Below are positions 30,162 through 47,253 of a DNA stretch of 64,000 nt, in pieces. A program made the translations under genes and the position numbers. The stretch lies in the NCBI GenBank assembly GCA_025354985.1, contig JANXLU010000011.1:124001-188000 (forward strand), given 5' to 3'. Below the pieces are notes generated by a model. It did no database searches. It was given only the letters and a program-made list of their open reading frames with translations, and had not been told where the DNA came from. Within the stretch, counting starts at the first letter, position 1; every line of letters starts with the position of its first letter. The DNA comes from Chloroflexota bacterium (lineage in GTDB: Bacteria; Chloroflexota; Anaerolineae; J036; Brachytrichaceae).

Positions 30162-30793
30162 AGGAGCTTTGGATCCATCAGGTCTTTCCAACGAGCGACC
30201 AGTGTTGCACGATCCCAGTCCCACCATTTTGAATCGGCGATTCGCGTAATCGTTGCATCATCGAACCGGTTGCGGATTTTTTTGGCTGGTACACCAGCGA
30301 CGACGCTATATGGCTCGACGTTTTTTGTCACAACACTTCCCGTTCCTATTACCGCCCCGTTGCCTATGACGACACCAGGCATGATCGTGGCGTTGTGACC
30401 TATCCACACATCGTGGCCAACCTGGCAGCGGTGATCCCGGCGCCATTCGAAGAACTCGTGGTCATCTTGTGTATCAAGGCCATATTCGATCCTACGATAC
30501 GTCATATGGTGCTGCGTTGCGCGATCCATCGGGTGATTTCCCGGGTTAATACGGACAAATGAGGCAATGGAACAGAACTTTCCAATATCGGCATAGATGA
30601 GCTGTGAATCCCCGGCGAGATATGTATGTTCGGCAACGTTGGCCTCAACCAACGTGCAGCCTGCGCCAATATCGGTCCAGGAACCGAGTTTGCAATTACG
30701 GACAATTGAGGATGCGTGAATGGTGGGCGTTTCTTTTAGAATCTTTGGCGGCGTGGCCTCGCGTGCCGGAAAAGACGTAATTTCATAAATCAT
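30158..30793 (-). CDS. Hexapeptide-repeat acyltransferase of the phn operon (DapH/GlmU-related)
   Basis: 211 residues made of left-handed beta-helix repeats, as in the xenobiotic/virginiamycin acetyltransferase group. The typical loop region reads CQVGHDVWIGHNATIMPGVV then IGNGAVIGTGSVVTKNVEPY and SVVAGVPAKKIRNRF, and HHMTYRRIEYG provides the catalytic-type His loop. In many bacteria a protein of this class is encoded next to phnM, and it may acetylate aminophosphonate substrates as PhnO does in E. coli; this is family context, not proof. It overlaps phnM by four bases and the 2H phosphoesterase gene by four bases, so all three are coupled. Confidence 0.75.
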   Translation of the reverse strand: MIYEITSFPAREATPPKILKETPTIHASSIVRNCKLGSWTDIGAGCTLVEANVAEHTYLAGDSQLIYADIGKFCSIASFVRINPGNHPMDRATQHHMTYRRIEYGLDTQDDHEFFEWRRDHRCQVGHDVWIGHNATIMPGVVIGNGAVIGTGSVVTKNVEPYSVVAGVPAKKIRNRFDDATITRIADSKWWDWDRATLVARWKDLMDPKLL

Positions 30794-31956
30794 AATGTGG
30801 TGCCATCCATGTAAATGGGATTTCCGTTGCGTAGCGTCATGCGTACCCGTGGAAATTCTCCTCGGTCATCAAAGATCATGATGTCGGCACGATTCCCTAC
30901 AATTAGTGAGCCGCGATTGACAAGCTTGCATGCACTGGCAACGTTGTGAGTCACCAAGGCCATTGCATGGTTTTGATCCAACAATCCAAGCTTTACAAGG
31001 GCACACACGCTTTGCAAAAGCGCACCGGGATGATAGTCCGCGGCGAGAATGTCGACCAATCCATTTGCAATTGCGTCCCGCGCACTTAGGTTGCCGGAGG
31101 TGCTCACGCCACGCAGCGCGTTTGGCGCACCCATTACGACCGCCATTTTGTGGCCACGCGCCGCTTGTGCGGCTTCCGCGGTAACTGGGAATTCGCTCAA
31201 CGAGACGCCAAATGAGCTCATCAAGCCGACCTTTTCAACCGTGTCGTCATCATGCGAGGCCACCACGATGCCGAGGTCGTGCGCGCGCTTCGCAAGCTGC
31301 TGGATGATTTCCCAGGGCTTGGGCCGCTCCTGCGCCTTTTGTACCGTTTCAAGCGACATCACCGAATAGTCGGTGCTAAGCTTGCTCCATCGCTCCATTT
31401 CTTTCATGTAACGCTCTATATCGCGATACTGACCCTGTCCAGGCGTATGATCGTTTAGCGACACCAAGTGCACCATCCCTTCTTCAATAAGTCGCTCTAA
31501 AAGGGGTGGGGCGTTTTGATTTGTAACCTCAAAACGTGCATGGATGCGCCAATCGACCAGGCAGTTCTTGCGCTCGTTATGAATTGCAGTTACGAGTTCC
31601 TGCGCTGTTTCGTGCCGTCGAACGCCAACCTGGCGGATTGAAATTTCGCTAAATGAAACCGCTGCAAATGCTGTGGTGACGCCGGCCGCAGCCAACCGCT
31701 TGTCCAGTTCTTGAATTGCAATGGCGAAGGGCAGGCGGGCATTCGGGCGCGGCTCAAGCTCTCGCTCGATCATGTCACCGTGCATATCAATGATTCCGGG
31801 TGCTGCAGTGAGGCCGGCAACCCGATACGAGCGACCGGCACCGTTGGCGGGTGCGGATCCTTCCCGAATTTCCGCAATTGTGCCATCCTGGATGCGTATG
31901 CAACCATTGCGGATGATTCGGTCCGGCAGGATCAGCCTAAGGTTTTCAAGCCACAT
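30790..31956 (-). CDS. phnM: Alpha-D-ribose 1-methylphosphonate 5-triphosphate diphosphatase PhnM
   Basis: 388 residues, normal for PhnM. It is an amidohydrolase-superfamily protein: VAGLTAAPGIIDMHGDMIER holds the HxD-type metal motif, IVVASHDDDTVEKVG a later metal ligand region, and LVDILAADYHPGALLQSVCA the C-terminal Asp ligand. PhnM removes pyrophosphate from ribosyl 1-phosphonate 5-triphosphate to give the 5-phosphate, the substrate of PhnJ. It overlaps phnL by 11 bases and the acyltransferase gene by four. A lone amidohydrolase could be assigned otherwise, but the operon context makes PhnM secure. Confidence 0.93.
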   Translation of the reverse strand: MWLENLRLILPDRIIRNGCIRIQDGTIAEIREGSAPANGAGRSYRVAGLTAAPGIIDMHGDMIERELEPRPNARLPFAIAIQELDKRLAAAGVTTAFAAVSFSEISIRQVGVRRHETAQELVTAIHNERKNCLVDWRIHARFEVTNQNAPPLLERLIEEGMVHLVSLNDHTPGQGQYRDIERYMKEMERWSKLSTDYSVMSLETVQKAQERPKPWEIIQQLAKRAHDLGIVVASHDDDTVEKVGLMSSFGVSLSEFPVTAEAAQAARGHKMAVVMGAPNALRGVSTSGNLSARDAIANGLVDILAADYHPGALLQSVCALVKLGLLDQNHAMALVTHNVASACKLVNRGSLIVGNRADIMIFDDRGEFPRVRMTLRNGNPIYMDGTTL

Positions 31957-32641
31957 GTTTTATTTCGATTTCCTTGTCGATGAGATGCCGAATGTCCTCC
32001 GGATGGTGAAAGACGCCTATAAATGCCACGCCCTGATCCTTAAGCAGACTCAAACGCGTCGTTAACGCAGCCCGTGCCACCGCATCAAGCGAGGCGGTTG
32101 GCTCGTCCAGTAATATCAACCGACGGGTTGTGGCCAGCGTATGGGCAAGGTTGACCTTTTGCTGCTCCCCACCGCTAAACGTGGTCGGGTACGCGTGGTG
32201 GAGTTCACGCTTTAAGCCAAAAGAATCTAGCAGCTCACGTGCATCTTGTTCGGCCGCATCCGGCGTCACGTCGGCGTTTGGCCGATGCAAGAATGACTCC
32301 GCAACCATTGCGAGTGCGCTGACGCGTGGTCGGGCTTTTAGGAACTGCGTCACGTGACCGATTTCCTCATGGCGAAGGTTCAGTATCTGTCGGTCCGTTG
32401 CCGTAACCAAATCGACGCCTCCTGTACGGCTCAAATATAGGGCGCTACCGGAACTTGGCAGATACGTTCGAAACAGGCAGCGCAGCAGGGTGCTTTTGCC
32501 AGCGCCATTTGGACCGGTGACCAGCATAAATTGACCTTCATACAGATCAAAATCCAGATTTTCGAAAGCTGGAATCTCCCGCTCCAAGTGGTGAATGGTG
32601 AATCGTTTGCAATAACTACGGACTTCAAGCAGTGCGTTCAT
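31946..32641 (-). CDS. phnL: C-P lyase system ABC-type protein PhnL
   Basis: 231 residues. Walker A VTGPNGAGKSTLLRCLF, signature FSGGEQQKVNLAHTL, and Walker B LILLDEPTASLDAVARAAL are all present. It has no membrane segment. PhnL is the partner ABC subunit of the C-P lyase core and binds on top of PhnK; PhnGHI with PhnL forms the first-step transferase activity in E. coli. Its gene shares its boundary base with phnK (TAATG) and overlaps phnM by 11 bases. Confidence 0.93.
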   Translation of the reverse strand: MNALLEVRSYCKRFTIHHLEREIPAFENLDFDLYEGQFMLVTGPNGAGKSTLLRCLFRTYLPSSGSALYLSRTGGVDLVTATDRQILNLRHEEIGHVTQFLKARPRVSALAMVAESFLHRPNADVTPDAAEQDARELLDSFGLKRELHHAYPTTFSGGEQQKVNLAHTLATTRRLILLDEPTASLDAVARAALTTRLSLLKDQGVAFIGVFHHPEDIRHLIDKEIEIKHVA

Positions 32642-33468
32642 TAAAGTTTTGCGTGCACCAACTGTTGCGTATAGGCATGTTGCGGATCTTCCAACACCTG
32701 GTCGGCAAGTCCCTGCTCTACAACCCGTCCATGTCGCATAACCATTACCCGGTCGGCAAGCATCCGTATGACACCCAAGTCATGAGACACCACAATCATG
32801 GTAGTTCCTATGTCACGTTGCACCCGGCGAAGCGTGTCAAGGACAAGCGCCTGAACACTTACGTCCAAACCGGTTGTTGGCTCGTCGAGCAGGAGCAATT
32901 TGGGATTCAGTGCAATGGCTTTCGCCAATTGCACCCGTTGCTGCATGCCGCCGGAAAGTGCAAGCGGCGGGTCATCCATCCGGTCAAGCGGAAATTCGCT
33001 GGCTCGGAAGGACGTCTCGGCGGCCTGCCTAAGCTGTGAATAGTTTCGCACTCCGGCCACGATTAGTCGCTCGGCGACGTTTCCACTGCTGGTGTTGTTC
33101 ATGCGCAGACCGATGTGCGGGTTCTGATATACGATGCCAATATGGAAGACTCGGATTGCCCGCTGCTCTGACCGATCCAGCTTAAACAAATCACCTGCAT
33201 AAATGCCATCGAGTTCATAGGATCCCGTATCGGGTTGCTCCTCTAGATTTAACATGCGGAGTATGGTGCTCTTCCCACTGCCACTTTCCCCGACGATGCC
33301 CAACACTTCGCCTCGATAGGCGGTTATATCCACGTTATTAACAGCGACAACATTCTTGCCGTAACGCTTTGCCAATCCAACCGCCTTCAAGACTGGCTTC
33401 TCCTCAATTACGGTCGCAGGGATAACGTCTTCGGCCGTGCTATTTGGATCAGGCTCAGAGTTCTTCAT
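32641..33468 (-). CDS. phnK: C-P lyase system ATP-binding protein PhnK
   Basis: 275 residues, slightly longer than E. coli PhnK because of an N-terminal acidic tail (EDVIPATVIEEK). Walker A GESGSGKSTILRML, signature LSGGMQQRVQLAKAIAL, Walker B LLLLDEPTTGLD and the H-loop VVSHDLG are intact. The sequence resembles oligopeptide-transporter ATPases but, as known for PhnK, it binds the soluble PhnGHIJ core, contacting PhnJ, and not a membrane domain. It overlaps the end of phnJ by 14 bases, so it is co-translated with it. Confidence 0.93.
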   Translation of the reverse strand: MKNSEPDPNSTAEDVIPATVIEEKPVLKAVGLAKRYGKNVVAVNNVDITAYRGEVLGIVGESGSGKSTILRMLNLEEQPDTGSYELDGIYAGDLFKLDRSEQRAIRVFHIGIVYQNPHIGLRMNNTSSGNVAERLIVAGVRNYSQLRQAAETSFRASEFPLDRMDDPPLALSGGMQQRVQLAKAIALNPKLLLLDEPTTGLDVSVQALVLDTLRRVQRDIGTTMIVVSHDLGVIRMLADRVMVMRHGRVVEQGLADQVLEDPQHAYTQQLVHAKL

Positions 33469-34420
33469 CTTTAAGAAATCCGCCTATATAAAAGTGCCCT
33501 GTTTCATTGTCATAATACGGAACGCCGGCGCATTCCGTGCCATCGACCCGTTTCACGTCCGCAACCAGTTTTTCGCGGTAACTGGTATCGGAAATTTCGT
33601 GTTCGGCCCCACCAGACTGCAAGGGAATTTCGCTCATAAATTTGTTGCTCCCCCCGCTTATGCGGCACGTCCAGCCGCGCTGGTTCTCGATTCGGAAGGG
33701 CACGTCATCAAATTCGAGCGGTTTGACCGAGGTGTACGGTGGAACAACATACAGCCGCTTTTCACGGCCTGCACTCAAGATGGTCAGGTGCTGCGCCATA
33801 TGCAGCTTTGGAACATCCCACCGTGGTATCGGTGAAGGACTCATGACATATCTTCCATGCACTAATGCCGGGTAACTGGCGCCTATTGTTACGCGCCGGT
33901 AACGCACAAGCTGTTCATAAAGTCCGAGCCACAGTAAACCGTATTCTCCGTCGCCGTGCATTTCACGGGATTTGCCAATATCACTTTCCACGCCGCGGAG
34001 CGGTTCCGGGTCGGGAACCTGAAGAACCAAAATCTGGTGCTCACCCATAATTTCTTCCGGCACCCGGTGTCGGCTCTGAACAATGGTGGCTGCCAGCGTG
34101 TCGGTTGTGGTGTGGCACGCGCTCACTCTAAAAATAAAGCGACGCAAGTTTGCGGCATTGACGCTGTCGTCAGCACCCTGATCAATGACCTTGACGTTAT
34201 CTTCAGGACCGACCAAGGACAAGGTGGCTTGAAGGCCACCTGTCCCCCAGCCCCGTGCAATTGGCAGCTCGCGGCTCGCATAGGGCACCTGATAGCCCGG
34301 AATTGCAATCGCCTTCAGTGTTTTGCGCCTAAGCTCGCGTTTTGCATATTCGTCCAAAAACGCATAGCTATACCCGTTGTTGGGACTGGCGAGCTCGGAT
34401 AACGTTCTGTGCCCTGTCAT
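33455..34420 (-). CDS. phnJ: Divergent C-P lyase subunit PhnJ lacking most Fe-S cysteines
   Basis: 321 residues (E. coli 281). The body aligns closely with PhnJ: AIAIPGYQVPYASRELP keeps the glycyl-radical Gly (Gly42 here, Gly32 in E. coli), RGWGTGGLQATLSLVGPED and VIDQGADDSVNAANLRRF are classical, and QSRHRVPEE (His118) matches the zinc-site histidine. PhnJ normally binds a [4Fe-4S] cluster with C241, C244 and C266 and uses C272 as thiyl radical. Here only the first remains (Cys252, in WTCRISGG); the others are Ser255, Ile276 and Arg282. The C-terminus is about 40 residues longer, with Cys297. No frameshift explains this: the frame is continuous and the gene overlaps phnI by 4 and phnK by 14 bases. 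Activity may use other ligands or may be lost. Confidence 0.9.
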   Translation of the reverse strand: MTGHRTLSELASPNNGYSYAFLDEYAKRELRRKTLKAIAIPGYQVPYASRELPIARGWGTGGLQATLSLVGPEDNVKVIDQGADDSVNAANLRRFIFRVSACHTTTDTLAATIVQSRHRVPEEIMGEHQILVLQVPDPEPLRGVESDIGKSREMHGDGEYGLLWLGLYEQLVRYRRVTIGASYPALVHGRYVMSPSPIPRWDVPKLHMAQHLTILSAGREKRLYVVPPYTSVKPLEFDDVPFRIENQRGWTCRISGGSNKFMSEIPLQSGGAEHEISDTSYREKLVADVKRVDGTECAGVPYYDNETGHFYIGGFLKDEEL

Positions 34421-35598
34421 GACAGTTCCTTACCAGACTTGGCAGCGCCGTTTGGCGCGTTTTCAGAAAACGATCCTGGTGTTCCAAGTGGGACGGAAGC
34501 ACCGGTTGTTTTCAGGTAATCACCGGCCGCAGTTACCGCGCGCATTGCATCCAAATCACTGCCAAACGTAACATAGTGCGGCAGCTTGTAGTGAATACAA
34601 AACCCACTACTCTCCACGGGGTCCGTGTGATGCAGCACGTAATCCTCCGTGTGACTTGGGTGCGGCTTTGGCAGGTCCATGGCCATATCCAGCATTGACC
34701 CGGCAATGCATTTGATTTCGTTCCAACCGATGGTCGCGCAATAGCCCAGAGCGAGCTCGGGCTTTTCTGCAGCTCCTTTGAACGTTGTAACTATTTCGGC
34801 CTGGCTTAAACGAACCCGACCGATACTGAATGGCTCACCTGAAACGGGATGTGTGATTGTGACATCCGCATACCCTAGACGCAATTCATTGACCGTCGGA
34901 TGTACGGTTCCATAGCCGCGCATGTTCGCATAACCCAGACTGAGAATCCCACCGGTATCTGCCCGGCCCAAAAGCTGCAGACGAACGGCGCGATCCGCGG
35001 GAATATGCATGGGCTCGCGCGTAACATCAGGCAGTGAGTCCGGTGAAACGGAACTGGCCGAAAATGGCAGCTCCGGAAGCAGGCCTTCTGCGCGTTGCCA
35101 GTCTGCGACAGCGGGTAGTGATGCTTGCCTTGTTAACAATTCGGAATTGCGGATCATTTGGACGGGGAGCGTGCTCGAAATTGGTCCATGATCTCGCTCG
35201 TTGTCCAGCATTTCGAGTGGCAGCAATCTGTGGCTATAGTCGAGTGTCGGGCCGAGTATTTGGCCGCCTGGAATATCTTTGAAGGCGGCAGATATGCGCC
35301 GCACGGTCAACCAATCGTCCTGCACCAGCGTCTTGGCATATGCAATACGCGGCTGGGTACTTCTAAATGCGCGCAGCATTAGCACGGATTCATACAGGTC
35401 GCCACCGGTATACAAAATTGCCAAAGCCGCCAGCTCGGGTGCATAGAGCGAGCCCTCTCCCATCACTTTGTCTATCAGGTAGGGCATGGTGGATTCCACT
35501 CTCCTGACGTCGTCGGCGTTGAAGGTTGACTTTAATGAGTGAAATAGTTGCTCGGCATTAAGAATTGCCTGTTCTCCGCCTCGTGCTGCCACATACAT
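34417..35598 (-). CDS. phnI: C-P lyase core subunit PhnI
   Basis: 393 residues, standard PhnI length. It carries the conserved start YVAARGGEQAILNAEQLF, the LGPTLDYSHRLLPLEML region, LGYANMRGYGTVHPTVNELR, and near the end HTDPVESSGFCIHYKLPHYV, whose His336 and His341 match the two zinc-binding histidines (H328, H333) that PhnI contributes opposite PhnJ in E. coli. With PhnGHL, PhnI attaches the phosphonate to ribose 1-position of ATP, releasing adenine; PhnI alone is a nucleosidase. It starts 1 base after phnH and overlaps phnJ by four bases. Confidence 0.95.
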   Translation of the reverse strand: MYVAARGGEQAILNAEQLFHSLKSTFNADDVRRVESTMPYLIDKVMGEGSLYAPELAALAILYTGGDLYESVLMLRAFRSTQPRIAYAKTLVQDDWLTVRRISAAFKDIPGGQILGPTLDYSHRLLPLEMLDNERDHGPISSTLPVQMIRNSELLTRQASLPAVADWQRAEGLLPELPFSASSVSPDSLPDVTREPMHIPADRAVRLQLLGRADTGGILSLGYANMRGYGTVHPTVNELRLGYADVTITHPVSGEPFSIGRVRLSQAEIVTTFKGAAEKPELALGYCATIGWNEIKCIAGSMLDMAMDLPKPHPSHTEDYVLHHTDPVESSGFCIHYKLPHYVTFGSDLDAMRAVTAAGDYLKTTGASVPLGTPGSFSENAPNGAAKSGKELS

Positions 35599-35599
35599 T

Positions 35600-36148
35600 T
35601 CAGGTCACCTCCAAAAGTGTGGTCCTGGGTACGCCTACGACCTGGTGTTGGTCAATCAAAAAACAATCGACGCCCCTGGGGTATCGAATCAGCTGAGCGC
35701 GAATCGTCCAAAATGCCAGTGGAACATCGCAATCGAAGTCCGTTGTTGATTTGACGCCGGGACCTGATACGCGCAGTTGAAATCCAGTTTTGAACGAGCA
35801 ATTGATGACGAGCGTCGCACTGCGATCGGGATGATTAATCGTTCCGATCCGTACACCAGACAGGTGCGGTGTATCTGCGATTTCCAACGCATTAAGAAAA
35901 ACATAGTCGGCATCGACGAGTCCCGTTCGCGCTGCTCCAGTACGGTCCAAAAGGGCGCTGTCGATTGCCTTGTCACAATAGAAGGTGGTCTCCAAGTCAA
36001 GCAGTGTCTCCGCGACGACCGCAAGACCCGCCTCCGGGAGGTGCTGAACAGTTCCAGGATAGGAAAGGGACCACATGAGCGCCAAATACGCTGTTCGTAG
36101 GCGAGCTTCGTGGGGCGACTCACTCGTCGCAGTTTTGGATGCAGTCAT
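35600..36148 (-). CDS. phnH: C-P lyase core subunit PhnH
   Basis: 182 residues (E. coli 194). Features matching PhnH include AYLALMWSLSYPGTVQHLP at the N-terminus, LLDLETTFYCDKAID, and the C-terminal LRVSGPGVKSTTDFDCDVPL plus RYPRGVDCFLIDQHQVVGVP, which covers the conserved GPGI- and R-x-PxGxDx-type signatures. PhnH has a PLP-transferase-like fold but does not bind PLP; it is a dimerisation partner of the PhnI surface. A 108-base gap separates it from phnG, unlike the tight spacing of the rest of the operon. Confidence 0.92.
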   Translation of the reverse strand: MTASKTATSESPHEARLRTAYLALMWSLSYPGTVQHLPEAGLAVVAETLLDLETTFYCDKAIDSALLDRTGAARTGLVDADYVFLNALEIADTPHLSGVRIGTINHPDRSATLVINCSFKTGFQLRVSGPGVKSTTDFDCDVPLAFWTIRAQLIRYPRGVDCFLIDQHQVVGVPRTTLLEVT

Positions 36149-36256
36149 CGTTGCTTAGTATTCAAGCAAAGGTGGCACACACTTTGCTCATCCGCCGGTT
36201 GACAGAGAAATTGTTCGCGGTCTATTTGAGAGGCTCAACTTGATCCAAACTGAAGA
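36149..36256 (-). other. unusual 108-base gap inside the phn operon
   Basis: Between phnG and phnH lies a gap in an operon whose other core junctions overlap or touch. I see no ribosome-binding site far upstream, no hairpin of note, and no start codon for a small gene in the minus strand. An internal promoter for phnH onward or a decayed remnant is possible. Confidence 0.4.
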
Positions 36257-36673
36257 TCAAAAGGTCTCCATTTCAACTTTGGTTTCTTCAACCGACTTTC
36301 TCAGTTCGAAATCAGCCGACCTTTGAATGCGCCTCTGATCTTCGACAAAATCGAAAATGTCCGCAGTATGTAACTGGGAACGCAGCGCCGCGTCAAGAAC
36401 AGCGACAGCAAGTGCCTGCTCGGTATCCCTTCCGAGGCATGCGCCATAGCCGTGTGCGTCATGCGAAGTGAGCGTGACAAACGCTTCGGCAATCAGGATT
36501 TCGCCAATGTAGAAGGCGCTTCCTTTGGCTGTATCTCGATGCGGGAGCATCACGATCCCGCTGCGATTACGATCCACTTTCACCTCGCCCAGGCCGGCAA
36601 GTAGCGATTCGGCAAATCGTTTTACGGTTTGTGCCGGAGCTTGGGCGAGGATTGAAAGTGTGTCTTCAAGCAT
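36257..36673 (-). CDS. phnG: C-P lyase core subunit PhnG
   Basis: 138 residues, near the usual 150. PhnG features: SILAQAPAQTVKRFAESLL at the N-terminus, VDRNRSGIVMLPHRDTAKGS, FYIGEILIAEAFVTL, GYGACLGRDTEQALAVAVL. PhnG forms an obligate complex with PhnI and is required for the first condensation with ATP. It lies 22 bases after phnD, so the binding protein and core enzyme are on one transcript, without the regulator PhnF that starts many phn operons. Confidence 0.92.
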   Translation of the reverse strand: MLEDTLSILAQAPAQTVKRFAESLLAGLGEVKVDRNRSGIVMLPHRDTAKGSAFYIGEILIAEAFVTLTSHDAHGYGACLGRDTEQALAVAVLDAALRSQLHTADIFDFVEDQRRIQRSADFELRKSVEETKVEMETF

Positions 36674-36695
36674 TTGAAACCATTCGGGTTCCAGA

Positions 36696-37745
36696 CTATT
36701 TCATCTTCTTCAGGTCAAGATTGAGCAATTTGGCCGCATCCCGCAGAATGTTATAGAAATCATCCAGGCGGGCAAGGCCAAGATCCTTTGTCGGATCAAC
36801 GAAGTAGGAACCTGCTGCGGCGACGTAGGCCGGATCGTTGGTAGCGTCCAGAAGCGTCTTCTTCATGGTGTCCTTGAAGCTCTGGGGCAGGTCGGCGCGC
36901 ACGGCAAATGGGGTCTCCGGAATGGGCACGCTGTAGAAGAAAGGCACTATGCTGCCGTCTTTGCAGTTGGCATAGTTGGCATCTACTTCAGCCTGAGTGC
37001 GCGGCTTTCCGACAATTCCATCCGGGAAAGCACAGAAGTCTATTTGGCCGTCCTTGGCAAGTGCATACAAGTTGCCCTCAAATGTTGCTGCCGCGGGAAC
37101 CTTGTTGTTCCAAACTGCCTGCACAGCGCTTGGATGGCTGCCGGCAAAGATCACCTTCATGTCCTTGTCCGGGTCAATCTTGTTGTTCAACAACGAGGTC
37201 TTGGGCATCAAATGACCGCTGGTGCTCGCCGGATCTACGAACGCAAAATCCTTGCCCTTGAGATCGTTGATGGATTTGATCCCGCTGCCTTTTTTGGTGA
37301 TCAGGACGCTGTAATAATACGGCTTCAAGTTCGGGTCAATCTTGGCTGTGTCACCCTTCTTAACAGTTGGGGTAAGGTTGACAACCAATGCCTCGGCATT
37401 GGCTTCCTGCACGGCCAGCACGTAGCTGAACGGGCCAACAATCATGGCATCGGCCTTCTTGTTGCGCATGGCCTCAATCACCGCGCTGTAGCTGCTTCCG
37501 GTGACACCCTTCACCGTAACACCCATGTTCTTCTGAATGCGATCTATGAACGCGGTCTGGTCCTTCAGAGCCTTTTCGGCGTCATCACCGGCGAAGAAGC
37601 CGATCGTGATTTCCTTGGGCCAGTCCGCCTTTGGATCGGCGGCTACAGGGGCCTTGGCGGTTGGGGCGGCGGGAGCCGCGCACGCCACCAGCATTATGCC
37701 GCTGGCAACGGCAAGCAAACTCTTGTGTACGATAGTCTTTTCCAT
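36696..37745 (-). CDS. phnD: Phosphonate ABC transporter substrate-binding lipoprotein PhnD
   Basis: 349 residues. A lipoprotein signal peptide with VACA lipobox (Cys 22) and an Ala/Pro-rich tether lead into a phosphonate-binding periplasmic-type domain: ITIGFFAGDDAEKALKDQTA, VTGSSYSAVIEAMRNKKADA, MIVGPFSYVLAVQEANAEAL and AFVDPASTSGHLMPKTSLL, where the PxSTSGxxxP motif binds phosphonate. It captures phosphonates outside the membrane. Gene order here is phnC-phnE-phnD, whereas E. coli has C-D-E, so the binding protein comes third and is followed at once by phnG. Confidence 0.95.
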   Translation of the reverse strand: MEKTIVHKSLLAVASGIMLVACAAPAAPTAKAPVAADPKADWPKEITIGFFAGDDAEKALKDQTAFIDRIQKNMGVTVKGVTGSSYSAVIEAMRNKKADAMIVGPFSYVLAVQEANAEALVVNLTPTVKKGDTAKIDPNLKPYYYSVLITKKGSGIKSINDLKGKDFAFVDPASTSGHLMPKTSLLNNKIDPDKDMKVIFAGSHPSAVQAVWNNKVPAAATFEGNLYALAKDGQIDFCAFPDGIVGKPRTQAEVDANYANCKDGSIVPFFYSVPIPETPFAVRADLPQSFKDTMKKTLLDATNDPAYVAAAGSYFVDPTKDLGLARLDDFYNILRDAAKLLNLDLKKMK

Positions 37746-37784
37746 TTGTTTTGTTACTCCACTATTTGATTCAGTCTGTCAAGG

Positions 37785-38669
37785 TCACACGACCTTCTTG
37801 CGGATTCGATCACTGGCCCGGTCAATAATGAGCACAGTGGAAATCACCAGGATCAGGGCGCCCATCAAGTTTTGATATTGAAAAAGCGCGAAGTATTTTT
37901 GAATCTGGAAGCCGATTCCACCACCACCGACGTATCCCAGGACGGTTGCGGCACGAATGTTGCCCTCTAGAACCAACAAGGCAAACGAAGCAATGCTGGG
38001 CAATGCCTGTGGAAGAACGGCATAGCGAAACACAGCCAGACGATCTGCTCCTGTCGCACGCACTGCAAGCACTTGTTGAGGCTCAATGGATTCAATACTG
38101 TCTCCATATATGCGGCCAAGACCGCCGAGCGACGTGCACGTCAAGGCAAGTACACCTGCAAAAGGCCCCAGTCCCACTGCAGCCACGAAGACAAGCGCCA
38201 TAAAGAGTTCCGGCACGGCCCGGACGCTGTTGACAAAAAACCGGGTAACGTAATACAGCACTGGATGCGGGCTCACGTTGCGCGCCGCCAGAATGCCAAT
38301 CGGGATTGAAAACAACAGCGCCGCGCTTGTACCTATCAGCGCAATGAACATTGTCTGAATGATTGAGCCGGCGACCGTCGGATAAAGAATTTCTCCAAGT
38401 GGTGTTTCCAGACCAGTGAGCTCAAATTTTGGCGGAAAACATCGCACAATAAACGCTGCGATATTTGGCAAGCCCTCGAGAAGCTCCTGCGGTTCAGCCT
38501 TGATATTCCGTAGACCAATCGTATACACCAGTCCCACGAGTCCCAAGATGAGAATCGTCCGCCAGCTTATTGCTGGAAATGGCTTGAGCATCGTCTCGCG
38601 TGCCGACGCTTGAATCAGCTTTGCTGAAGAGGCGGAAGCCTGACCGTGTGTTGTTGCCTGAACGTCCAT
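37785..38669 (-). CDS. phnE: Phosphonate ABC transporter permease PhnE
   Basis: 294 residues with about six membrane helices and a cytoplasmic amphipathic N-terminus. The permease-signature loop reads LGPFAGVLALTCTSLGGLGRI then YGDSIESIEPQQVLAVRATGA, matching the EAA motif of PhnE-type phosphonate and phosphite permeases. Other matching parts are RNVSPHPVLYYVTRFFVNSV and RAVPELFMALVFVAAVGLG. It pairs with PhnC and PhnD for phosphonate import. Confidence 0.94.
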   Translation of the reverse strand: MDVQATTHGQASASSAKLIQASARETMLKPFPAISWRTILILGLVGLVYTIGLRNIKAEPQELLEGLPNIAAFIVRCFPPKFELTGLETPLGEILYPTVAGSIIQTMFIALIGTSAALLFSIPIGILAARNVSPHPVLYYVTRFFVNSVRAVPELFMALVFVAAVGLGPFAGVLALTCTSLGGLGRIYGDSIESIEPQQVLAVRATGADRLAVFRYAVLPQALPSIASFALLVLEGNIRAATVLGYVGGGGIGFQIQKYFALFQYQNLMGALILVISTVLIIDRASDRIRKKVV

Positions 38670-38695
38670 AACTTTTTCTCTTTAGTGATTCAAGG

Positions 38696-39454
38696 TTAGC
38701 CCGATATTTTGTCGAAGTTGTATATGCGATCCATAGCAGCATCATCCAACTGAGCAGGCGTGCCGTCAAATACAATGACGCCTTGCGCCAGACCAATCAT
38801 CCGATCAACATATTTGGCGGCAAGATCCAACTGATGGATGTTGATGATGGTCAACGTGCCATCCTCGCGCGCTACACGTGCCAGGTCACCGATGATGATG
38901 GCCGAAAGGTTGGGATCCAGGGATGCCACGGGTTCGTCGGCCAGAATAATAGTCGGCTCCTGCGACAATGCGCGAGCAATACTCACGCGCTGTTTCTCGC
39001 CACCCGAGATTTTGTCTGCCCTATAACTGGCGCGGTGAAGCATGTTTACCCGCTCCAGATTTCTAATCGCGATTTCCCTGTGCCCGCGATCAAAATAACC
39101 AATCAGATTTTTCCCGCGACCGTTGTATGACAGCCGACCGGTAAGAACATTGCTCATGACTGAAAGCCGCTCGATCAAGTTGTATTCCTGCCATACAAAC
39201 CCCACTTTGCGCCGCAAGTTCGTAAGTTGGCGCTCTTCCATGCCAACAATTTCTTCCCCATCGAGACGGATCGACCCTGCTTGTGGTTTTTCCAGCCCGT
39301 TTATGCACCGCAATAGGGTGCTCTTTCCAGCGCCACTACGACCGATGATTGCGATAATTTCGCCCTTTTTTGCGTTGAAGGTGACCCGCTTTAGCGCGGC
39401 ATGCCCGTTTGGGTATTCCAGCCTAAGGTCCTTGATCTGAAGAATATCGTCCAC
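38696..39454 (-). CDS. phnC: Phosphonate ABC transporter ATP-binding protein PhnC
   Basis: 252 residues starting with GTG at 39454, preceded by AGAAGG six bases away, which supports this start. Walker A AIIGRSGAGKSTLLRCINGL, Q-loop FVWQEYNLIERLSV, signature SGGEKQRVSIARALSQEP, Walker B IILADEPVASLDP and H-loop INIHQLDLA are complete. The hydrophobic core is typical of phosphonate/phosphite ATPases. It is the first gene of the phn operon; the divergent regulatory region with candidate Pho boxes lies immediately upstream. Confidence 0.95.
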   Translation of the reverse strand: MDDILQIKDLRLEYPNGHAALKRVTFNAKKGEIIAIIGRSGAGKSTLLRCINGLEKPQAGSIRLDGEEIVGMEERQLTNLRRKVGFVWQEYNLIERLSVMSNVLTGRLSYNGRGKNLIGYFDRGHREIAIRNLERVNMLHRASYRADKISGGEKQRVSIARALSQEPTIILADEPVASLDPNLSAIIIGDLARVAREDGTLTIINIHQLDLAAKYVDRMIGLAQGVIVFDGTPAQLDDAAMDRIYNFDKISG

Positions 39455-39794
39455 TTGTTGCCTTCTGCGTTCCTAGGTAGCAAAGGTATGTGGCACCTGT
39501 TAAGGCTGTACCGGCCGAATATTAAGAACGCTTAAAATTCTTTTGACCGATTAGCGCGCCTATTCGCGGCTGTGGTCGTCGTGGGATAACACCATCTTAA
39601 CGCCTGAAAACGGAAACTGCTTGGTCACTATATTTGTCTTGGATCACCTGACAATTTTCTGCAGGATGCACTGATCGGGCGCACAACACAGTTGCTTATG
39701 CACACCTGATAAATATGTTAAGCACGGATCACCTGTTCTTAATTGGGATGCACCAAAGGCTCGTTACTGTTTACCTGCGGAGGTTGAAACACCA
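39455..39794. promoter_or_regulatory. divergent regulatory region between phnC and the plcP-like gene, with candidate Pho-box units
   Basis: 340 bases with no gene. Read on the minus strand (phnC side), CTTAAT at 39521-39526 and CCTTAACA at 39498-39505 are 22 bases apart (two helical turns), and TTTTAAGC (39530-39537) lies 10 bases further out; together they resemble CTTAAC-type Pho boxes. On the plus side, GTTAAG (39717-39722) and CTTAAT (39738-39743) are 21 bases apart before the plcP-like gene. Spacing is less exact than at pstB and pstS. The plcP-like ribosome-binding site is GGAGG at 39779-39783. Confidence 0.45.
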
Positions 39795-40661
39795 ATGCAA
39801 CTACGCCGACATCCCGACCTGCATCTCACCGAGGCACTCGATGCCACCCTCAAACGGGCGGACACATTCATGCCTTTGGACGTGCGCTCCGCAAAATTGG
39901 TCGTCTTCTCCGATTTGCATCGTGGAGCCGGAAACTCGGCGGACGAATTTCTGCGCACGGAAACCACGTATTTGGCCGCGCTGTGGCGCTATTTCCAGGC
40001 CGGGTTTACGCTGGTAAGTTTGGGTGATATGGAGGATCTGTGGAAGGAACCACCTGCCCGGGTAATTGCGACACACCGTGCATCCCTCCAACTTGAGCGC
40101 AGCTTTCATCTTCAAGGACGCTATCTTAGGTTTTGGGGTAATCACGATGAAAGTTGGGGGAACAGTCAAAGCGTGCTACGCTGGCTTCACCCGGTTTATG
40201 GTGACGCATTGCGGATTTATGAATCGCTGCGGATGAAGGTGGTTGACGGCACCTGCCACCTTGGTGAACTGTTATTTCTGCATGGCCACCAAGGCACTTG
40301 GGATGGTGAGCGTTTGTCAACAGTCGCCCGCCCTGTGGTTCGGCACATCTGGCGCTTGGTCCAGCTCTGCACCGGTTGGTCCTCCAATCAACCTGAAAAC
40401 GTGTTGAAAATGAGCCGGGGTGAGAACATTATGCAGGGTTGGGCCATGCGCAACGGACTTACGATGGTCACCGGGCACACCCACCGCCCGATGGTCAGAC
40501 GTCGCTATCTCAATTCCGGTGCGTGTTGTTTCTCGGATGGCTCCATTACGGGCCTCGAAATTGACGGTGGCGAAGTGCGCCATATTCAGTGGAACTTATC
40601 CAGTTCAACCCCAAATTCAATCGTCATAAGCCATGCGCCGTTGGTTTCCGTGCTAGGTTGA
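39795..40661 (+). CDS. PlcP/LpxH-like metallophosphoesterase
   Basis: 288 residues, ATG 39795 after a GGAGG ribosome-binding site. The five metal-binding motifs of calcineurin-like phosphoesterases are in order: SDLHRG, LGDMEDLW, WGNHDESW, LHGHQG and GHTHRP. The GDxE-D-W pattern resembles LpxH/UDP-2,3-diacylglucosamine pyrophosphatase relatives; the PlcP branch of that family releases the headgroup of phosphatidylglycerol or phosphatidylethanolamine when phosphate is scarce. Immediately downstream stands a GT28 diacylglycerol glycosyltransferase and then the Pst system, the setting expected for a lipid-remodelling phospholipase. A different phosphodiester substrate cannot be excluded. No membrane segment or signal peptide, so it acts in the cytoplasm. 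Confidence 0.72.
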   Translation: MQLRRHPDLHLTEALDATLKRADTFMPLDVRSAKLVVFSDLHRGAGNSADEFLRTETTYLAALWRYFQAGFTLVSLGDMEDLWKEPPARVIATHRASLQLERSFHLQGRYLRFWGNHDESWGNSQSVLRWLHPVYGDALRIYESLRMKVVDGTCHLGELLFLHGHQGTWDGERLSTVARPVVRHIWRLVQLCTGWSSNQPENVLKMSRGENIMQGWAMRNGLTMVTGHTHRPMVRRRYLNSGACCFSDGSITGLEIDGGEVRHIQWNLSSSTPNSIVISHAPLVSVLG

Positions 40662-40678
40662 GCTGACTTTGACCTGAT

Positions 40679-40718
40679 ATTAATGAAGATTTAACAATTG
40701 GAATTTAGCGTTTAATCT
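40679..40718 (+). promoter_or_regulatory. candidate Pho box upstream of the GT28 gene
   Basis: ATTAAT (40679-40684) and TTTAAC (40690-40695) have their TTAA cores exactly 11 bases apart; a third TTTAATCT lies at 40711-40718, directly before the start codon. The pattern resembles the stronger repeats before pstB and pstS. The area is AT-rich, so chance similarity is possible. Confidence 0.45.
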
Positions 40719-40719
40719 C

Positions 40720-41859
40720 ATGCACCTCAACCGCGGGCTTAAACAGAAAATTTCGATTCTCTATGCCGACACGGGTGGCGGTCATCGCAGTTCTGGTGAG
40801 GCAATTTCTCAGGGCATTGAGATCGCCTATCCCGGCCAATTCGAGGTTTCATTCGTAAATAATTTTCGCAGTTGGCCATTTCCGTTTTCAATTGCCGAAG
40901 ATATCTACCCGCCACTGGTCAATCATGCCCGGCCGGTATACAAAGCCACGTTCCGTGCGACAAATCACAAGAATGTGACTGCAACCCTTCGCCGAATGTT
41001 TGAACCGTTGTCCGAAAAGCTAGCAGCGGAAATGCTCGCGCAATATCCAGCGGACTTGTATCTTTCAGTGCACCCGTTATACAACCAGGTTTTGCCTGCA
41101 GCCATCTGCGAAACTAATGCGCGGGCAAAATATGTGTCAGTAGTGACCGATCTCGTCACCGGACATGTTCAGTGGTATCACCAGGATGTGCATCGTTGCA
41201 TCGTGCCAACATCGGCGGCTTTTGAGCAAGCGGTGCATTTTGGCATTCCGCGGGATCACGTTCGAATCGGCGGCCAGCCGGTGTGGCCCGATTTCGCAAA
41301 GCGGATGACCGCGGGCGCCCAAACACGCGCCGCGCTTGGTCTTGACCCAAATATTCCGGTTGCCTTGTTGATGGGCGGTGGAGATGGAATGGGCAGGTTG
41401 GAAGGCTTGGCGCGCAACATCGCATGGAGTGGATTACCCCTTCAATTAATCGTGGTGTGTGGCAGGAACGTCGCTGTGATGCAAGCGCTTGAGTTCGTGC
41501 GTCCACGAATCCCTGCCATGCGTGTGCTTGGATTTGTCCGGAACGTTCCGGAACTAATGGGCGCATCCGATGTGCTGATCACAAAAGCCGGTCCGGGCAC
41601 CATTTGCGAAGGATTTGTGGCGGGCCTGCCAATTATTCTCTATGACGCAATCCCGGGCCAGGAGGAGGGCAACATTGCGTTGGTCGAAGAGCAGGGTGCC
41701 GGGGTTTACTGCAAGTCAACGCGATCGGTGCTGCGCCAGCTGGAACATTGGCTGGGAAACAAAGAGGCCTTTCACACGGCAAAGATTTCTTCATCGCAAT
41801 TGGCGCGGCCCGATGCCGCCGTTGATATCGCACGCCTGTCAATAGAAATGTTGGCTTAA
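40720..41859 (+). CDS. GT28 diacylglycerol glycosyltransferase (MGDG-synthase/UgtP-like)
   Basis: 379 residues. N-terminal domain: ISILYADTGGGHRSSGEAIS, the GGGHxxA-type motif of monogalactosyl/glucosyl-diacylglycerol synthases, and ADLYLSVHPLYNQVLPAAI. C-terminal nucleotide-sugar domain: VALLMGGGDGMGRLEGL and ASDVLITKAGPGTICEGFVA, followed by PIILYDAIPGQEEGNIALVE, the family GPGT and PGQE-GN motifs. It would transfer glucose or galactose from UDP-sugar to diacylglycerol at the membrane surface. Diacylglycerol would be supplied by the PlcP-like enzyme encoded 58 bases upstream. Its stop codon overlaps the Pho box before pstB. Confidence 0.85.
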   Translation: MHLNRGLKQKISILYADTGGGHRSSGEAISQGIEIAYPGQFEVSFVNNFRSWPFPFSIAEDIYPPLVNHARPVYKATFRATNHKNVTATLRRMFEPLSEKLAAEMLAQYPADLYLSVHPLYNQVLPAAICETNARAKYVSVVTDLVTGHVQWYHQDVHRCIVPTSAAFEQAVHFGIPRDHVRIGGQPVWPDFAKRMTAGAQTRAALGLDPNIPVALLMGGGDGMGRLEGLARNIAWSGLPLQLIVVCGRNVAVMQALEFVRPRIPAMRVLGFVRNVPELMGASDVLITKAGPGTICEGFVAGLPIILYDAIPGQEEGNIALVEEQGAGVYCKSTRSVLRQLEHWLGNKEAFHTAKISSSQLARPDAAVDIARLSIEMLA

Positions 41860-41884
41860 TCTTTACTTAACCTACGCTGGTATT
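41855..41884 (+). promoter_or_regulatory. Pho box upstream of pstB
   Basis: CTTAATCT (41855-41862), three bases, then CTTAACCT (41866-41873): two 8-base repeats with 11-base period, followed by a degenerate third unit CTGGTATT (41877-41884). This matches the CTTAACC-type Pho boxes of cyanobacteria and Gram-positive relatives. A TATTCT sequence at 41881-41886 could be the -10 box; the start codon is at 41902. The first repeat overlaps the stop codon of the glycosyltransferase gene. Confidence 0.75.
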
Positions 41885-41901: not shown

Positions 41902-42735
41902 ATGTCAGAAACAAAAATGTCAACCGCCTCAAATGGATCAACGGGTGCTCAGGCAAATGATGTGTACCAAAAAATGCACGCCGAAAATCTGAGCATTTAT
42001 TACGGAAAGTTCCGTGCCGTAGCAGAGGTTACCGTTCCAGTAAGGGAGAAAATGATCACCGCGATCATCGGCCCCAGCGGATGCGGCAAGAGCACGCTGT
42101 TGCGATCATTCAATCGAATGAATGATCTCGTCGCTGTCGCGCGCGTATCTGGAAAGATAATGCTCGACGGCCTGGACATTTATGGCACTGATGTGGATGT
42201 TGTTGAGGTTCGTCGGCGTGTCGGCATGGTGTTCCAGCGTCCGAATCCATTCCCAAAATCAATATATGACAACGTCGCGTATGGCGTAAAACTAAACAAT
42301 ACGCGCATCCGCAAGGGCGACCTGGATGCAATTGTCGAAGACAGCCTGCAAGGTGCCGCCCTCTGGGATGAGGTTAAGGATAAGCTCAAGCAGTCTGGCA
42401 CTGCGTTATCGGGCGGTCAGCAGCAACGCTTGTGCATCGCCCGCGCAATCGCGACGCATCCGGATGTACTTCTGATGGACGAACCGTGTGCCGCGCTCGA
42501 TCCAATTGCAACCGTGAAAGTTGAAGAGCTGATGCAGGAGCTCAAGAAGCAATTCACGATTGTTATTGTGACCCACAACATGCAGCAGGCCGCTCGCGCC
42601 AGCGACTACACGATGATGATGATGATGCGGTCGGACCGCGCCGGCGAAATGATCGAGTTTGATCAAACGAAGAAGATATTCACCAACCCGCGGGATAAAC
42701 GCACAGAGGACTATGTAAACGGTCGCTTCGGGTAA
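41902..42735 (+). CDS. pstB: Phosphate import ATP-binding protein PstB
   Basis: 277 residues. After a 30-residue polar N-terminus come [19 protein letters not shown], Walker [41 protein letters not shown] (Q-loop, PstB-specific), signature [18 protein letters not shown], Walker [14 protein letters not shown] and [16 protein letters not shown]. These are diagnostic for PstB, which powers high-affinity phosphate uptake through PstCA. It is the first gene of the pst group and precedes phoU, an order unlike pstSCAB-phoU of E. coli. Confidence 0.97.
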
Positions 42736-42761
42736 TTTTTTTACGGAGTAGCTCAATAGCA

Positions 42762-43448
42762 ATGACACACATACAGAATAGAAGCAAGCTTGACCGCGAT
42801 TTGTCCGACCTGCGCGACGACATGGTTCGGATGAGTTCACACGTTGAAGCAATGACGGAAAAGGTCGTATCGGCACTGTTGGAGCACAATCTCGACAAGG
42901 CACGCGAAGTACGCGCCGAAGAAAAGCTCATTGATTCAATGCGTTACGAAATCGAGGAGAAATGCATCACCACGCTTGCCATGCAGGCGCCACTGGCACG
43001 CGACTTGCGCATTGTAATTGCCGCTTCGCACATCGCAGTCGAAATTGAACGCATGGCCGACTATGACAATGGCATCGCCAAAATTGTATTGCGGCTTGGC
43101 GATGCAGCACCTGTTCCCTGGATGCCTGACTTCAGATCGCTGCAGGTGAAGGTGTGCACCATGTTGCGTTCTGCGCAGGAGGCTTACCTGAAGTCTGACT
43201 TGAATGGCGTTCGACAGGTGATGGCCATGGATGGCGAAGTCGACCGGCTCTATAAGGCCATTCAGTCCGATCTATTTGAAGTTATGGGAAGTGATCCCGC
43301 AACGATTGGCCGCGCCCAAAGCCTGCTTTGGGTGGCACACAACCTGGAACGGTTGGGTGACCGCGTGACCAACGTTTGTGAACGCATTGTATTTATGCTT
43401 ACGGGCGAACTTCATGAAGACAAAAAGAGATCGTTAAACCAGGCTTAA
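42762..43448 (+). CDS. phoU: Phosphate transport system regulator PhoU
   Basis: 228 residues folding as two three-helix PhoU repeats, with the acidic metal-binding signatures IEEKCITTLAMQAPLARDLR in the first and DRVTNVCERIVFM in the second (E/D-x3-D/N-type motif). PhoU restrains the Pst transporter and the PhoR-PhoB signalling pathway when phosphate is plentiful. It follows pstB after 26 bases, and its 3' end contains the Pho box for pstS. There is no kinase gene for a PhoR partner nearby. Confidence 0.95.
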   Translation: MTHIQNRSKLDRDLSDLRDDMVRMSSHVEAMTEKVVSALLEHNLDKAREVRAEEKLIDSMRYEIEEKCITTLAMQAPLARDLRIVIAASHIAVEIERMADYDNGIAKIVLRLGDAAPVPWMPDFRSLQVKVCTMLRSAQEAYLKSDLNGVRQVMAMDGEVDRLYKAIQSDLFEVMGSDPATIGRAQSLLWVAHNLERLGDRVTNVCERIVFMLTGELHEDKKRSLNQA

Positions 43449-43451
43449 CGA
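43433..43451 (+). promoter_or_regulatory. Pho box upstream of pstS
   Basis: GTTAAACC (43433-43440) and CTTAACGA (43444-43451) are spaced by three bases, giving the same 11-base period as the pstB box. The second repeat overlaps the phoU stop codon (43446-43448). The pstS ribosome-binding site AGGAG is at 43502-43506 and its start at 43511. Confidence 0.7.
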
Positions 43452-43510
43452 AAATTGGCTACGTTTTACTTTGTTTGACGTAACAAACGACACCAAAAAA
43501 TAGGAGTTTT

Positions 43511-44602
43511 ATGACAATTAACAAATCCCATGCAATAGCCTCGTGGCTTGCGCTTTCCATGTTTCTGGCAGCTTGCGCCGCGCCAACTGCGGCGCCACAG
43601 GAGCCGAAGGGTTCCACTGCGCTAAACGGTTCGGGCGCAACGTTCCCCCAGCCGCTGTATGAAGATTGGGCATTTGCATATTCGCAATTGGACCCCTCTG
43701 TTCTTATCAACTATGCCGGTGGCGGTTCGGGCCAGGGCAAGACGGACATCACTAAGGGCACCGTAGACTATGCGGGTTCAGATGCCGCATTGAGTGATGC
43801 TGAAGCCGCGACCAAGCCTTTGGTTCAGCTTCCATCCGTGGCTGGTGCAGTGGTCGCGATTTTCAACATTCCCGATGTGACCACAACAGTAGTTCTGGAC
43901 GGTCAGGTCTTGGGTGACATTTACAGCGGCAAGATTGAGAAGTGGAATGACGCCGCCATAGTCAAGCTCAATCCAAAACTCACATTCCCTGACTTGCCAA
44001 TCAATGTTGTGCATCGCGCCGATGGCTCGGGCACCAGCAGCATTTTCACTACATATCTGTGCGCCGCCAATGCCAACTGGAAGGCCGCCGTGAACCCATG
44101 CAAGGGAACCACGGTTGACTGGCCCGTTGACAAACTGAAGCGTGGTCAAGGCGGTCGCGGCAATCAAGGTGTTGCCGCAGCGGTTCAGAAGACCAGCGGT
44201 GCCATTGGCTACGTTGAGCTGGCCTATGCCAAGAACAACGGTATTGACTATGCCCAGATGATCAACTCTGCCAATAAGCAGGTGGATGCCACGGTTGCCA
44301 GCACGACGGCCGCTACGGTTGGCGCCGCGTTTAGTGATCGCAATTCAGCCGATATTGTGAACGTGGCGAGCGCCGATGCCTGGCCAATTAGCGGATTCAC
44401 GTATCTCATCGTGGCCAAGGACTTTACCGACTGCAAAAAGGCCGGTAAGTTGCTACAGTTTTTCAACTGGGTGTTGACTGATTCAGCCGCAATTTCCCGC
44501 GCAGGCAAGTTGCTGTATTCACCTCTTGGTGATGATGCCAAGGCCAAGTCGTTGGCGGCATTGAAGACGGTAACCTGCAATGGTCAGCCCGTGCTGAAGT
44601 AG
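43511..44602 (+). CDS. pstS: Phosphate-binding lipoprotein PstS
   Basis: 363 residues with a lipoprotein signal (LAAC lipobox, Cys 22) and short Ala/Pro tether. The phosphate-binding domain shows LNGSGATFPQPLYEDWAFAY, NYAGGGSGQGKTDITKGTVD, YAGSDAALSDAEAA, and VVHRADGSGTSSIFTTYL, whose Ser/Thr/Asp side chains bind phosphate. It delivers phosphate to PstCA. A hairpin follows before pstC. It has its own Pho box within phoU. Confidence 0.97.
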   Translation: MTINKSHAIASWLALSMFLAACAAPTAAPQEPKGSTALNGSGATFPQPLYEDWAFAYSQLDPSVLINYAGGGSGQGKTDITKGTVDYAGSDAALSDAEAATKPLVQLPSVAGAVVAIFNIPDVTTTVVLDGQVLGDIYSGKIEKWNDAAIVKLNPKLTFPDLPINVVHRADGSGTSSIFTTYLCAANANWKAAVNPCKGTTVDWPVDKLKRGQGGRGNQGVAAAVQKTSGAIGYVELAYAKNNGIDYAQMINSANKQVDATVASTTAATVGAAFSDRNSADIVNVASADAWPISGFTYLIVAKDFTDCKKAGKLLQFFNWVLTDSAAISRAGKLLYSPLGDDAKAKSLAALKTVTCNGQPVLK

Positions 44603-44624
44603 GGTAGGCCGCTTGTAAATTTAT

Positions 44625-44668
44625 TACCGCGATGTGGTCGGTGAAGAAATCCACCACACATCGCGGTA
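44625..44668 (+). terminator. long hairpin between pstS and pstC
   Basis: TACCGCGATGTG (44625-44636) pairs perfectly with CACATCGCGGTA (44657-44668), and inner bases add GG-T/ACC pairs. No U tract follows (the next bases are TCACGTTTAAGC). It probably acts as an attenuator or 3'-end stabiliser that raises PstS level relative to the membrane subunits, and not as a full stop. Confidence 0.6.
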
Positions 44669-44684
44669 TCACGTTTAAGCCAAA

Positions 44685-45677: not shown

Positions 45678-45684
45678 AAAAACC

Positions 45685-46584: not shown

Positions 46585-47253
46585 ATGGCAAAATTGTTGA
46601 TTGTCGAGGATGAGCCAACGCTGCGCAACGTGCTGACCACCAATATGCGCAATGAGGGCTATGAAGTGCATTCGGTAGGCGACGGCTCGGAGGCGCTCGA
46701 GCTCGCGCGATCCGAATTACCGGATCTGTGCCTCCTTGACGTCATGTTGCCTGGTCTGGATGGTTTGAGTTTGTGTCGCATCCTTAGAAAGGAATCGGAC
46801 GCAGCGATCATTTTGTTGACGGCACGTGGCGCTGAAATGGATCGCGTCATCGGTCTTGAGACGGGTGCCGATGACTACGTGATGAAGCCGTTTTCGATGC
46901 CCGAGCTCACGGCTCGCGTGCGCGCGGCGCTTAGGCGCAGCAGCCGACGCCAGTCGGATAAGATTCGGTTTGGGGATATCGAAGTTGATTTGGCCGCACG
47001 GATGGTGCACCGCAGCGGCGAACAATTGAAACTCAGCTATAAGGAATATGAGCTCCTGGCAACCTTGTTACGCAACAAGGGAGTCGTTTTAACGCGCGAT
47101 TTTTTGCTTGCCCAGGTTTGGGGATACGACTATGACGGCGACCCGCGGACGTTGGATGTACATGTGCGTTGGCTGCGCGAGAAGATCGAGCAGGATGCGT
47201 CGAGCCCATTGATCGTGCAAACCGTGCGCGGCGTTGGCTATCGGGTCGTATAG
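46585..47253 (+). CDS. phoB: Response regulator of the OmpR/PhoB family
   Basis: 222 residues. Receiver domain: LLIVEDEPTLRNVLTTNMRN with the acidic pair, phosphorylation Asp in LCLLDVMLPGLDGL, LLTARG and DDYVMKPFSMPELTARV with the switch Thr and Lys. C-terminal winged helix: SYKEYELLATLLRNKGVVLT, RDFLLAQVWGYDYDGDPRTLD, VDVH-like region LDVHVRWLREKIEQ. Location at the end of the pst genes makes control of the Pho boxes likely. No histidine kinase gene follows, so the cognate PhoR must lie elsewhere. Confidence 0.9.
   Translation: MAKLLIVEDEPTLRNVLTTNMRNEGYEVHSVGDGSEALELARSELPDLCLLDVMLPGLDGLSLCRILRKESDAAIILLTARGAEMDRVIGLETGADDYVMKPFSMPELTARVRAALRRSSRRQSDKIRFGDIEVDLAARMVHRSGEQLKLSYKEYELLATLLRNKGVVLTRDFLLAQVWGYDYDGDPRTLDVHVRWLREKIEQDASSPLIVQTVRGVGYRVV

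Follow-up and report, generated by a model that had tools for sequence, protein, structure and literature searches.

A metallophosphoesterase gene and an MGDG-synthase-type glycosyltransferase gene between phn and pst in a Chloroflexota genome: a possible pair for lipid remodelling under phosphate starvation

The 64-kb stretch of Chloroflexota DNA analysed here (the window) carries a metallophosphoesterase gene (MPE) followed by a glycosyltransferase gene of family GT28, which the original prediction had proposed as a pair that exchanges phospholipid for glycolipid (Table 1). Both genes are real, intact and exactly where they had been placed, and they sit beside pst, as had been said, between the divergent phn cluster and pstB. 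MPE, GT28 and pstB are co-directional with short gaps, 58 bp between MPE and GT28 and 42 bp from the GT28 end to the pstB start, and the order downstream on the same strand is pstB-phoU-pstS-pstC-pstA-phoB-ppx. NCBIfam models matched phnD, phnH, phnM, pstS, an exopolyphosphatase and an OmpR/PhoB-type regulator, the last being 60-67% identical to the regulator that adjoins phoU in relatives. A promoter and terminator scan of the locus was uninformative.

Table 1. Features of the locus, with positions in the window.
Feature	Position	Strand	Remarks
phnC E D G H I J K L M, phosphonate uptake and C-P lyase	30790..39454	-	divergent from MPE
Divergent phnC / MPE promoter region	39455..39794
Pho-box-like site GCTTAAAATTCTTTTGACCG	39530..39549	+	phnC-MPE gap; best PWM match of the window
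Pho-box-like site GGATAACACCATCTTAACGC	39584..39603	+	phnC-MPE gap; third best PWM match
MPE, metallophosphoesterase of an unnamed family	39795..40661	+	288 aa; proposed phospholipid (or other phosphate-ester) hydrolase
Three 11-bp-spaced units, TTGAC-TTAAT-TTAAC	40669..40695 (40669, 40680, 40691)	+	MPE-GT28 gap
GT28, MGDG-synthase/UgtP-type glycosyltransferase	40720..41859	+	379 aa; proposed diacylglycerol (DAG) glycosyltransferase
Pho-box-like site GCTTAATCTTTACTTAACCT	41854..41873	+	GT28 to pstB; second best PWM match
pstB	41902..42735	+	78-82% identical to pstB of congeners
phoU	42762..43448	+
Pho-box-like site	43432..43451	+	phoU end, before pstS; fourth best PWM match
pstS	43511..44602	+	TIGR00975, 1.6e-92
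pstC	44685-45677	+
pstA	45685-46578	+
PhoB/MtrA-type response regulator, candidate Pho-box binder	46585..47253	+	PhoB model 4e-69, below cut-off

The surroundings of the pair have features of their own. The order pstB-phoU-pstS-pstC-pstA (41902-46578) differs from pstS-C-A-B-phoU in G202 and pstC-A-B-phoU in congeners, and the pstC and pstA of the window are closer to those of G202 (59-66%) than to those of congeners (30-35%), which suggests a replacement or rearrangement. At the end of the phn cluster a small protein (29607-30227, minus strand), 48% identical in G197, has weak similarity to 2H phosphoesterases (PF13563) and is a candidate replacement for PhnP, which is missing here. C-P lyase, represented by PhnJ, is rare in the class (4/199 genomes).

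The GT28 protein carries two domains above the Pfam cut-offs (PF06925 MGDG_synth, 2.3e-17; PF04101, 5.7e-9), and its best solved relative is Arabidopsis MGD1 (4wyi, 4.4e-63), followed by a processive DAG beta-glucosyltransferase (2.6e-31), while its scores are under the NCBIfam equivalog cut-offs. The domains and the match to MGD1 agree with its earlier description as a glycolipid-type enzyme of the MGDG-synthase kind and, being of GT28 type rather than the GT4 type of Agt, with the view that it differs in family from Agt. The protein is very probably a glycolipid synthase, and we infer from its family that the acceptor would be DAG and the donor UDP-Gal or UDP-Glc. The gene itself is ordinary for the class, being found in 153/199 class genomes and 27/28 order genomes. 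In the tree it forms a lineage-specific duplicate pair (100/99) with the C91 copy (68%), which is apparently the housekeeping one and has no Pho-box-like site in its upstream region. A third copy (L076, G000:C28:63260-64275) is split over frames with an in-frame stop and is either a pseudogene or an assembly error.

The MPE protein matches Pfam Metallophos above the cut-off (2.9e-6) and no NCBIfam model, and its predicted structure is confident (pLDDT 93.4), with Foldseek returning generic MPEs only, at low TM-scores (Vps29, PP5, purple acid phosphatase, SMPDL3A). All ligands of a two-metal site are present (D40, H42, D78, N116, H117, H163, H165, H228, H230) and invariant across 51 homologues; the set is that of the two-metal site of PlcP, but it is generic to MPEs. 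The LpxH/PlcP motif set that had been read into the protein holds at the level of motifs only: GD..(E/D).W, GNHD and GHTHRP are there, the last being the part that matches LpxH chains, but HGHQ stands in place of HGD, and the C-terminal NCGDWVES stretch of PlcP is missing, with NSGACCFSDG there instead. For comparison, the main reference was the P. aeruginosa pair L098, whose PlcP has been studied experimentally; it was chosen because the S. meliloti record (L095) is a pSymB homologue, and we infer from the adjacent GT and cyclase genes that L098 is PA3219-PA3218. A PlcP bait was used solely to retrieve real records. The PlcP HMM gave the window MPE an E-value of 0.3 and gave LpxH proteins 4e-15 to 9e-11 (Z=1e5 for both), with a few MPE family members reaching about 1e-13, and the LpxH HMM gave the window MPE E=23. 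In a tree that carries a long-branch warning, a branch of 4.66 changes per column (support 100/99) sets 88 MPE family members apart from both PlcP and LpxH, and within this clade the MPEs of the window and of a congener, G172, are sisters (100/99). The PlcP HMM, the separate clade and the generic fold matches rule out a PlcP by sequence, so that the label PlcP-like fails as a statement of family membership. Profile-profile comparison ranked PlcP (98%, 1.3e-13, 220 columns) above LpxH (94.7%, 5.6e-8, 182 columns), with single sequences of ApaH, CpdA and SbcD far below both. Judged by its sequence, the MPE is a member of an unnamed, patchy and uncharacterised family outside PlcP and LpxH. It was rejected as PhnP too, since TIGR03307 is of the metallo-beta-lactamase type and MPE is calcineurin-like. 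Neither a PlcP proper nor LpxC was found in this genome.

The idea that the pair is a variant of remodelling in this phylum finds no support in its distribution, since MPE is present in 24/199 class genomes and 4/400 phylum genomes and was seen to adjoin GT28 in this genome only. Within the searched members of the order, and likewise in the family of the window, MPE was confined to two species of a single genus, both of which bear phn, and the pst operons of other congeners have neither MPE nor GT28. In the second species, G172, MPE is followed by a GT2 gene that is incomplete at the contig end; according to PMC5809773, the GT2 family also includes a cyanobacterial DAG glucosyltransferase. The GT28 gene of G172 heads a separate operon (L077, G172:C143) with a tyrosine phosphatase and a phosphonate-associated hexapeptide transferase (TIGR03308). 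Box-like sites precede this apparent operon (p 0.06), which is divergent from a truncated lipoprotein gene. In a scan of genome contigs, from which 80 loci were kept, MPE family members came up in Chloroflexota, Chitinophagaceae, Gemmatimonadota and further groups, and at none of the 80 loci was GT28 or pst a neighbour; direct MPE searches of plasmids and viral contigs found nothing. Among 102 other MPE loci examined, 98 have no lipid-type GT within 600 bp of MPE and, besides G172, none adjoins pst or C-P lyase genes. Related GT4 genes run co-directionally with MPE homologues in three further families (L043, L047, L049); their best NCBIfam models, below cut-off, are lipid glycosyltransferases. 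A GT lies next to MPE in 4/20 cases in the class, a statistic that is no more than suggestive because its control is partly circular. In Parabacteroides (L097, 3735-4889) the gene after a PlcP-like gene encodes a GT of PF13528, so that there too a PlcP has a partner other than GT4.

Regulation was approached through the promoters of relatives. Seven genomes of the same family share an 11-bp direct repeat, YTTAAM-N5-YTTAAM, ahead of their pst/pho genes; this motif emerged from comparing the relatives' promoters, and generic 7-mer repeat scoring gave nothing significant. The same box was seen in relatives at L193 1112, L194 5469, L195 7940, L196 3182, L197 9050, L198 8857 and L200 8435. Exact TTAA-N7-TTAA occurs one to three times per relative's locus, before pst or phoU genes (0-0.3 expected), and three times in the window (0.3 expected), all at this locus, in the MPE-GT28 gap, in the GT28-pstB gap and at the phoU end before pstS. 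With a position weight matrix (PWM) trained on the relatives' pst/pho promoters only, six of the eight best matches in the window lie in the gaps of this locus, which make up 1.4% of the bases (binomial 2e-10), and when each relative was left out in turn the sites at 39530 and 41854 were always in the top three. Single scores are not above the best of shuffled windows (10.7-16.9), so the case for Pho boxes rests on joint location; taken alone, the MPE-GT28 gap offers a weak box (PWM 9.9, p 0.046; site 40678 ranks eighth in the window). In the 10-kb locus of G172 the two best sites lie in the phnC-MPE gap and in the MPE-GT2 gap, where three units (GCTTAACATTT, GTTTTACTGAG and CCTTAACATAT) stand at even spacing. 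Since the top boxes stand at the MPE gaps in both the window and G172, MPE and its GT look Pho-controlled in two species. The supposed link of the pair to phosphate starvation is upheld by its place in the phosphate regulon and by predicted promoter sites in the phnC-MPE, MPE-GT28 and GT28-pstB gaps, from which Pho-linked expression of MPE and GT28 can be predicted with considerable confidence. An 11-mer common to both phnC-MPE gaps, TTTTAAGCGTT, is within chance.

Remodelling by PlcP and Agt is documented mainly in Pseudomonadota and Bacteroidota. Under phosphate starvation it operates in Phaeobacter, SAR11 and P. aeruginosa PA3219-PA3218 (PMC4796936, PMC8528852), with PlcP-Agt1 of the last verified genetically (PMC8528852), and plcP is often in an operon with a GT, in varied neighbourhoods and with Pho boxes (PMC4796936). 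The present locus resembles these systems in that a metallophosphoesterase gene adjoins a lipid-type GT gene, that Pho-box-like promoter sites are predicted and that no secretion signal is evident. It differs in that the phosphoesterase is outside PlcP, the GT is an MGD-type GT28 as against the GT4 Agt, and the pair is placed between phn and pst. A second likeness is with plants, where type-B MGDG synthases (MGD2/MGD3) are induced by phosphate shortage (PMC5809773). Here too an MGD-type GT28 duplicate appears tied to phosphate starvation with the other copy apparently housekeeping, but the duplication is bacterial and independent and the gene is paired with a phosphoesterase gene. MGDG synthases are described as occurring mostly in Chloroflexi and Firmicutes (PMC2530860), and a transfer of MGDG synthase from Chloroflexi has been proposed (PMC5809773). 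These homologues are of the same GT28 family and apparently of the same phylum as the window, and the relevant passages of the two papers draw no link from them to phosphate genes.

Computation establishes the two genes and their order, the GT family, the duplication and, in two species, boxes of the Pho type. Our preferred reading of them is lipid remodelling under phosphate starvation by an MGD-type GT28 and a PlcP-like enzyme that is not orthologous to PlcP, and we hold it to be evenly balanced between right and wrong. When phosphate is short, the PhoB-type regulator would bind the 11-bp-repeat boxes before MPE, GT28 and pstB and turn on MPE-GT28-pst along with the divergent phn operon. A cytosolic MPE would then cut the phosphorylated head group off a membrane phospholipid, in the manner of PlcP but from a different MPE branch, which would free the phosphate-bearing head group and leave DAG. 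The MGD-type GT28 would transfer sugar from a UDP-sugar onto this DAG, and the phosphorus-free glycolipid would take the place of the phospholipid in the membrane. That MPE hydrolyses phospholipid is suggested by its context, and we put the chances of it at roughly equal either way. In favour of the remodelling reading, besides the Pho-type boxes and the MGD-type GT, are the closer profile match of MPE to PlcP than to LpxH, the GT4 neighbours of MPE homologues in three families and the failure to find a PlcP proper or LpxC in this genome; against it are the place of MPE outside the PlcP clade, the generic fold matches, the scarcity of neighbouring lipid-type GTs at other MPE loci, the lack of conservation of the MPE-GT28 pair and the weak box between the two genes.

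The strongest competing reading gives MPE a part in phosphonate use, since its constant neighbour is phnC and no phnP was found. MPE would then act at the PhnP step (on 5-phosphoribosyl 1,2-cyclic phosphate) or on another soluble phosphate ester, and GT28 would make glycolipid independently. The neighbour kept in both species is indeed the divergent phnC and not the GT family, no PhnP scored above cut-off in the order, neither phnP nor phnN was recognised in the G000 and G172 phn clusters, and the restriction of MPE to phn-bearing species in its family points the same way. However, phn clusters without MPE exist in G197 and G055, PhnJ was missing from the 22 other class genomes that have MPE, MPE is co-directional with a GT in both species, and the 2H-type phosphoesterase that G000 and G197 carry in their phn clusters could do the PhnP step, which leaves this role on the unlikely side. 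MPE could also serve for phosphate scavenging in the cell, as a general phosphomono- or diesterase, and adjoin GT28 only because both joined the Pho regulon. The generic fold would fit, as would a patchy family that in most genomes lacks conserved partners, but in two congeners a GT follows MPE and the gap between them holds a Pho-box-like site, and MPE homologues pair with lipid-type GT4, so we regard scavenging, too, as rather improbable. An origin of the DAG from the synthesis side and not from finished phospholipids, with MPE as a phosphatidate or phosphatidylglycerophosphate phosphatase, follows the same DAG-to-glycolipid logic and suits a superfamily that includes monoesterases and diesterases, but phosphatidate is not singled out by the sequence, and this seems very unlikely. 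MPE as an enzyme of lipid A synthesis like LpxH (UDP-2,3-diacylglucosamine hydrolase), with which it has distant superfamily kinship, a common motif layout and some similarity in the GHTHRP stretch, is ruled out by its separate clade, by an LpxH HMM that does not score the MPE family and by the lack of any lipid A pathway marker here, LpxC being missing in 28/28 order genomes with positive controls included.

Beyond the locus, we offer more tentatively, and at somewhat less than even probability, the proposal that the part of PlcP was taken over independently in Chloroflexota by a third, non-orthologous phosphoesterase family. Its GT partner would be Pho-controlled and interchangeable (GT28 here, GT2 in the congener, GT4 in further families), and the MGD-type duplicate linked to Pho would form a parallel to plant MGD2/3. 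The 11-bp Pho box can be used for predicting members of the Pho regulon across this lineage. If lipid remodelling is the function of the pair, it would be a Chloroflexota version with a different phosphoesterase and the GT family of plants, and thus a convergent solution. A widespread MPE family, so far uncharacterised, would thereby gain a function, and the plant pathway would have a parallel in the phylum proposed as a source of plant MGDG synthase.
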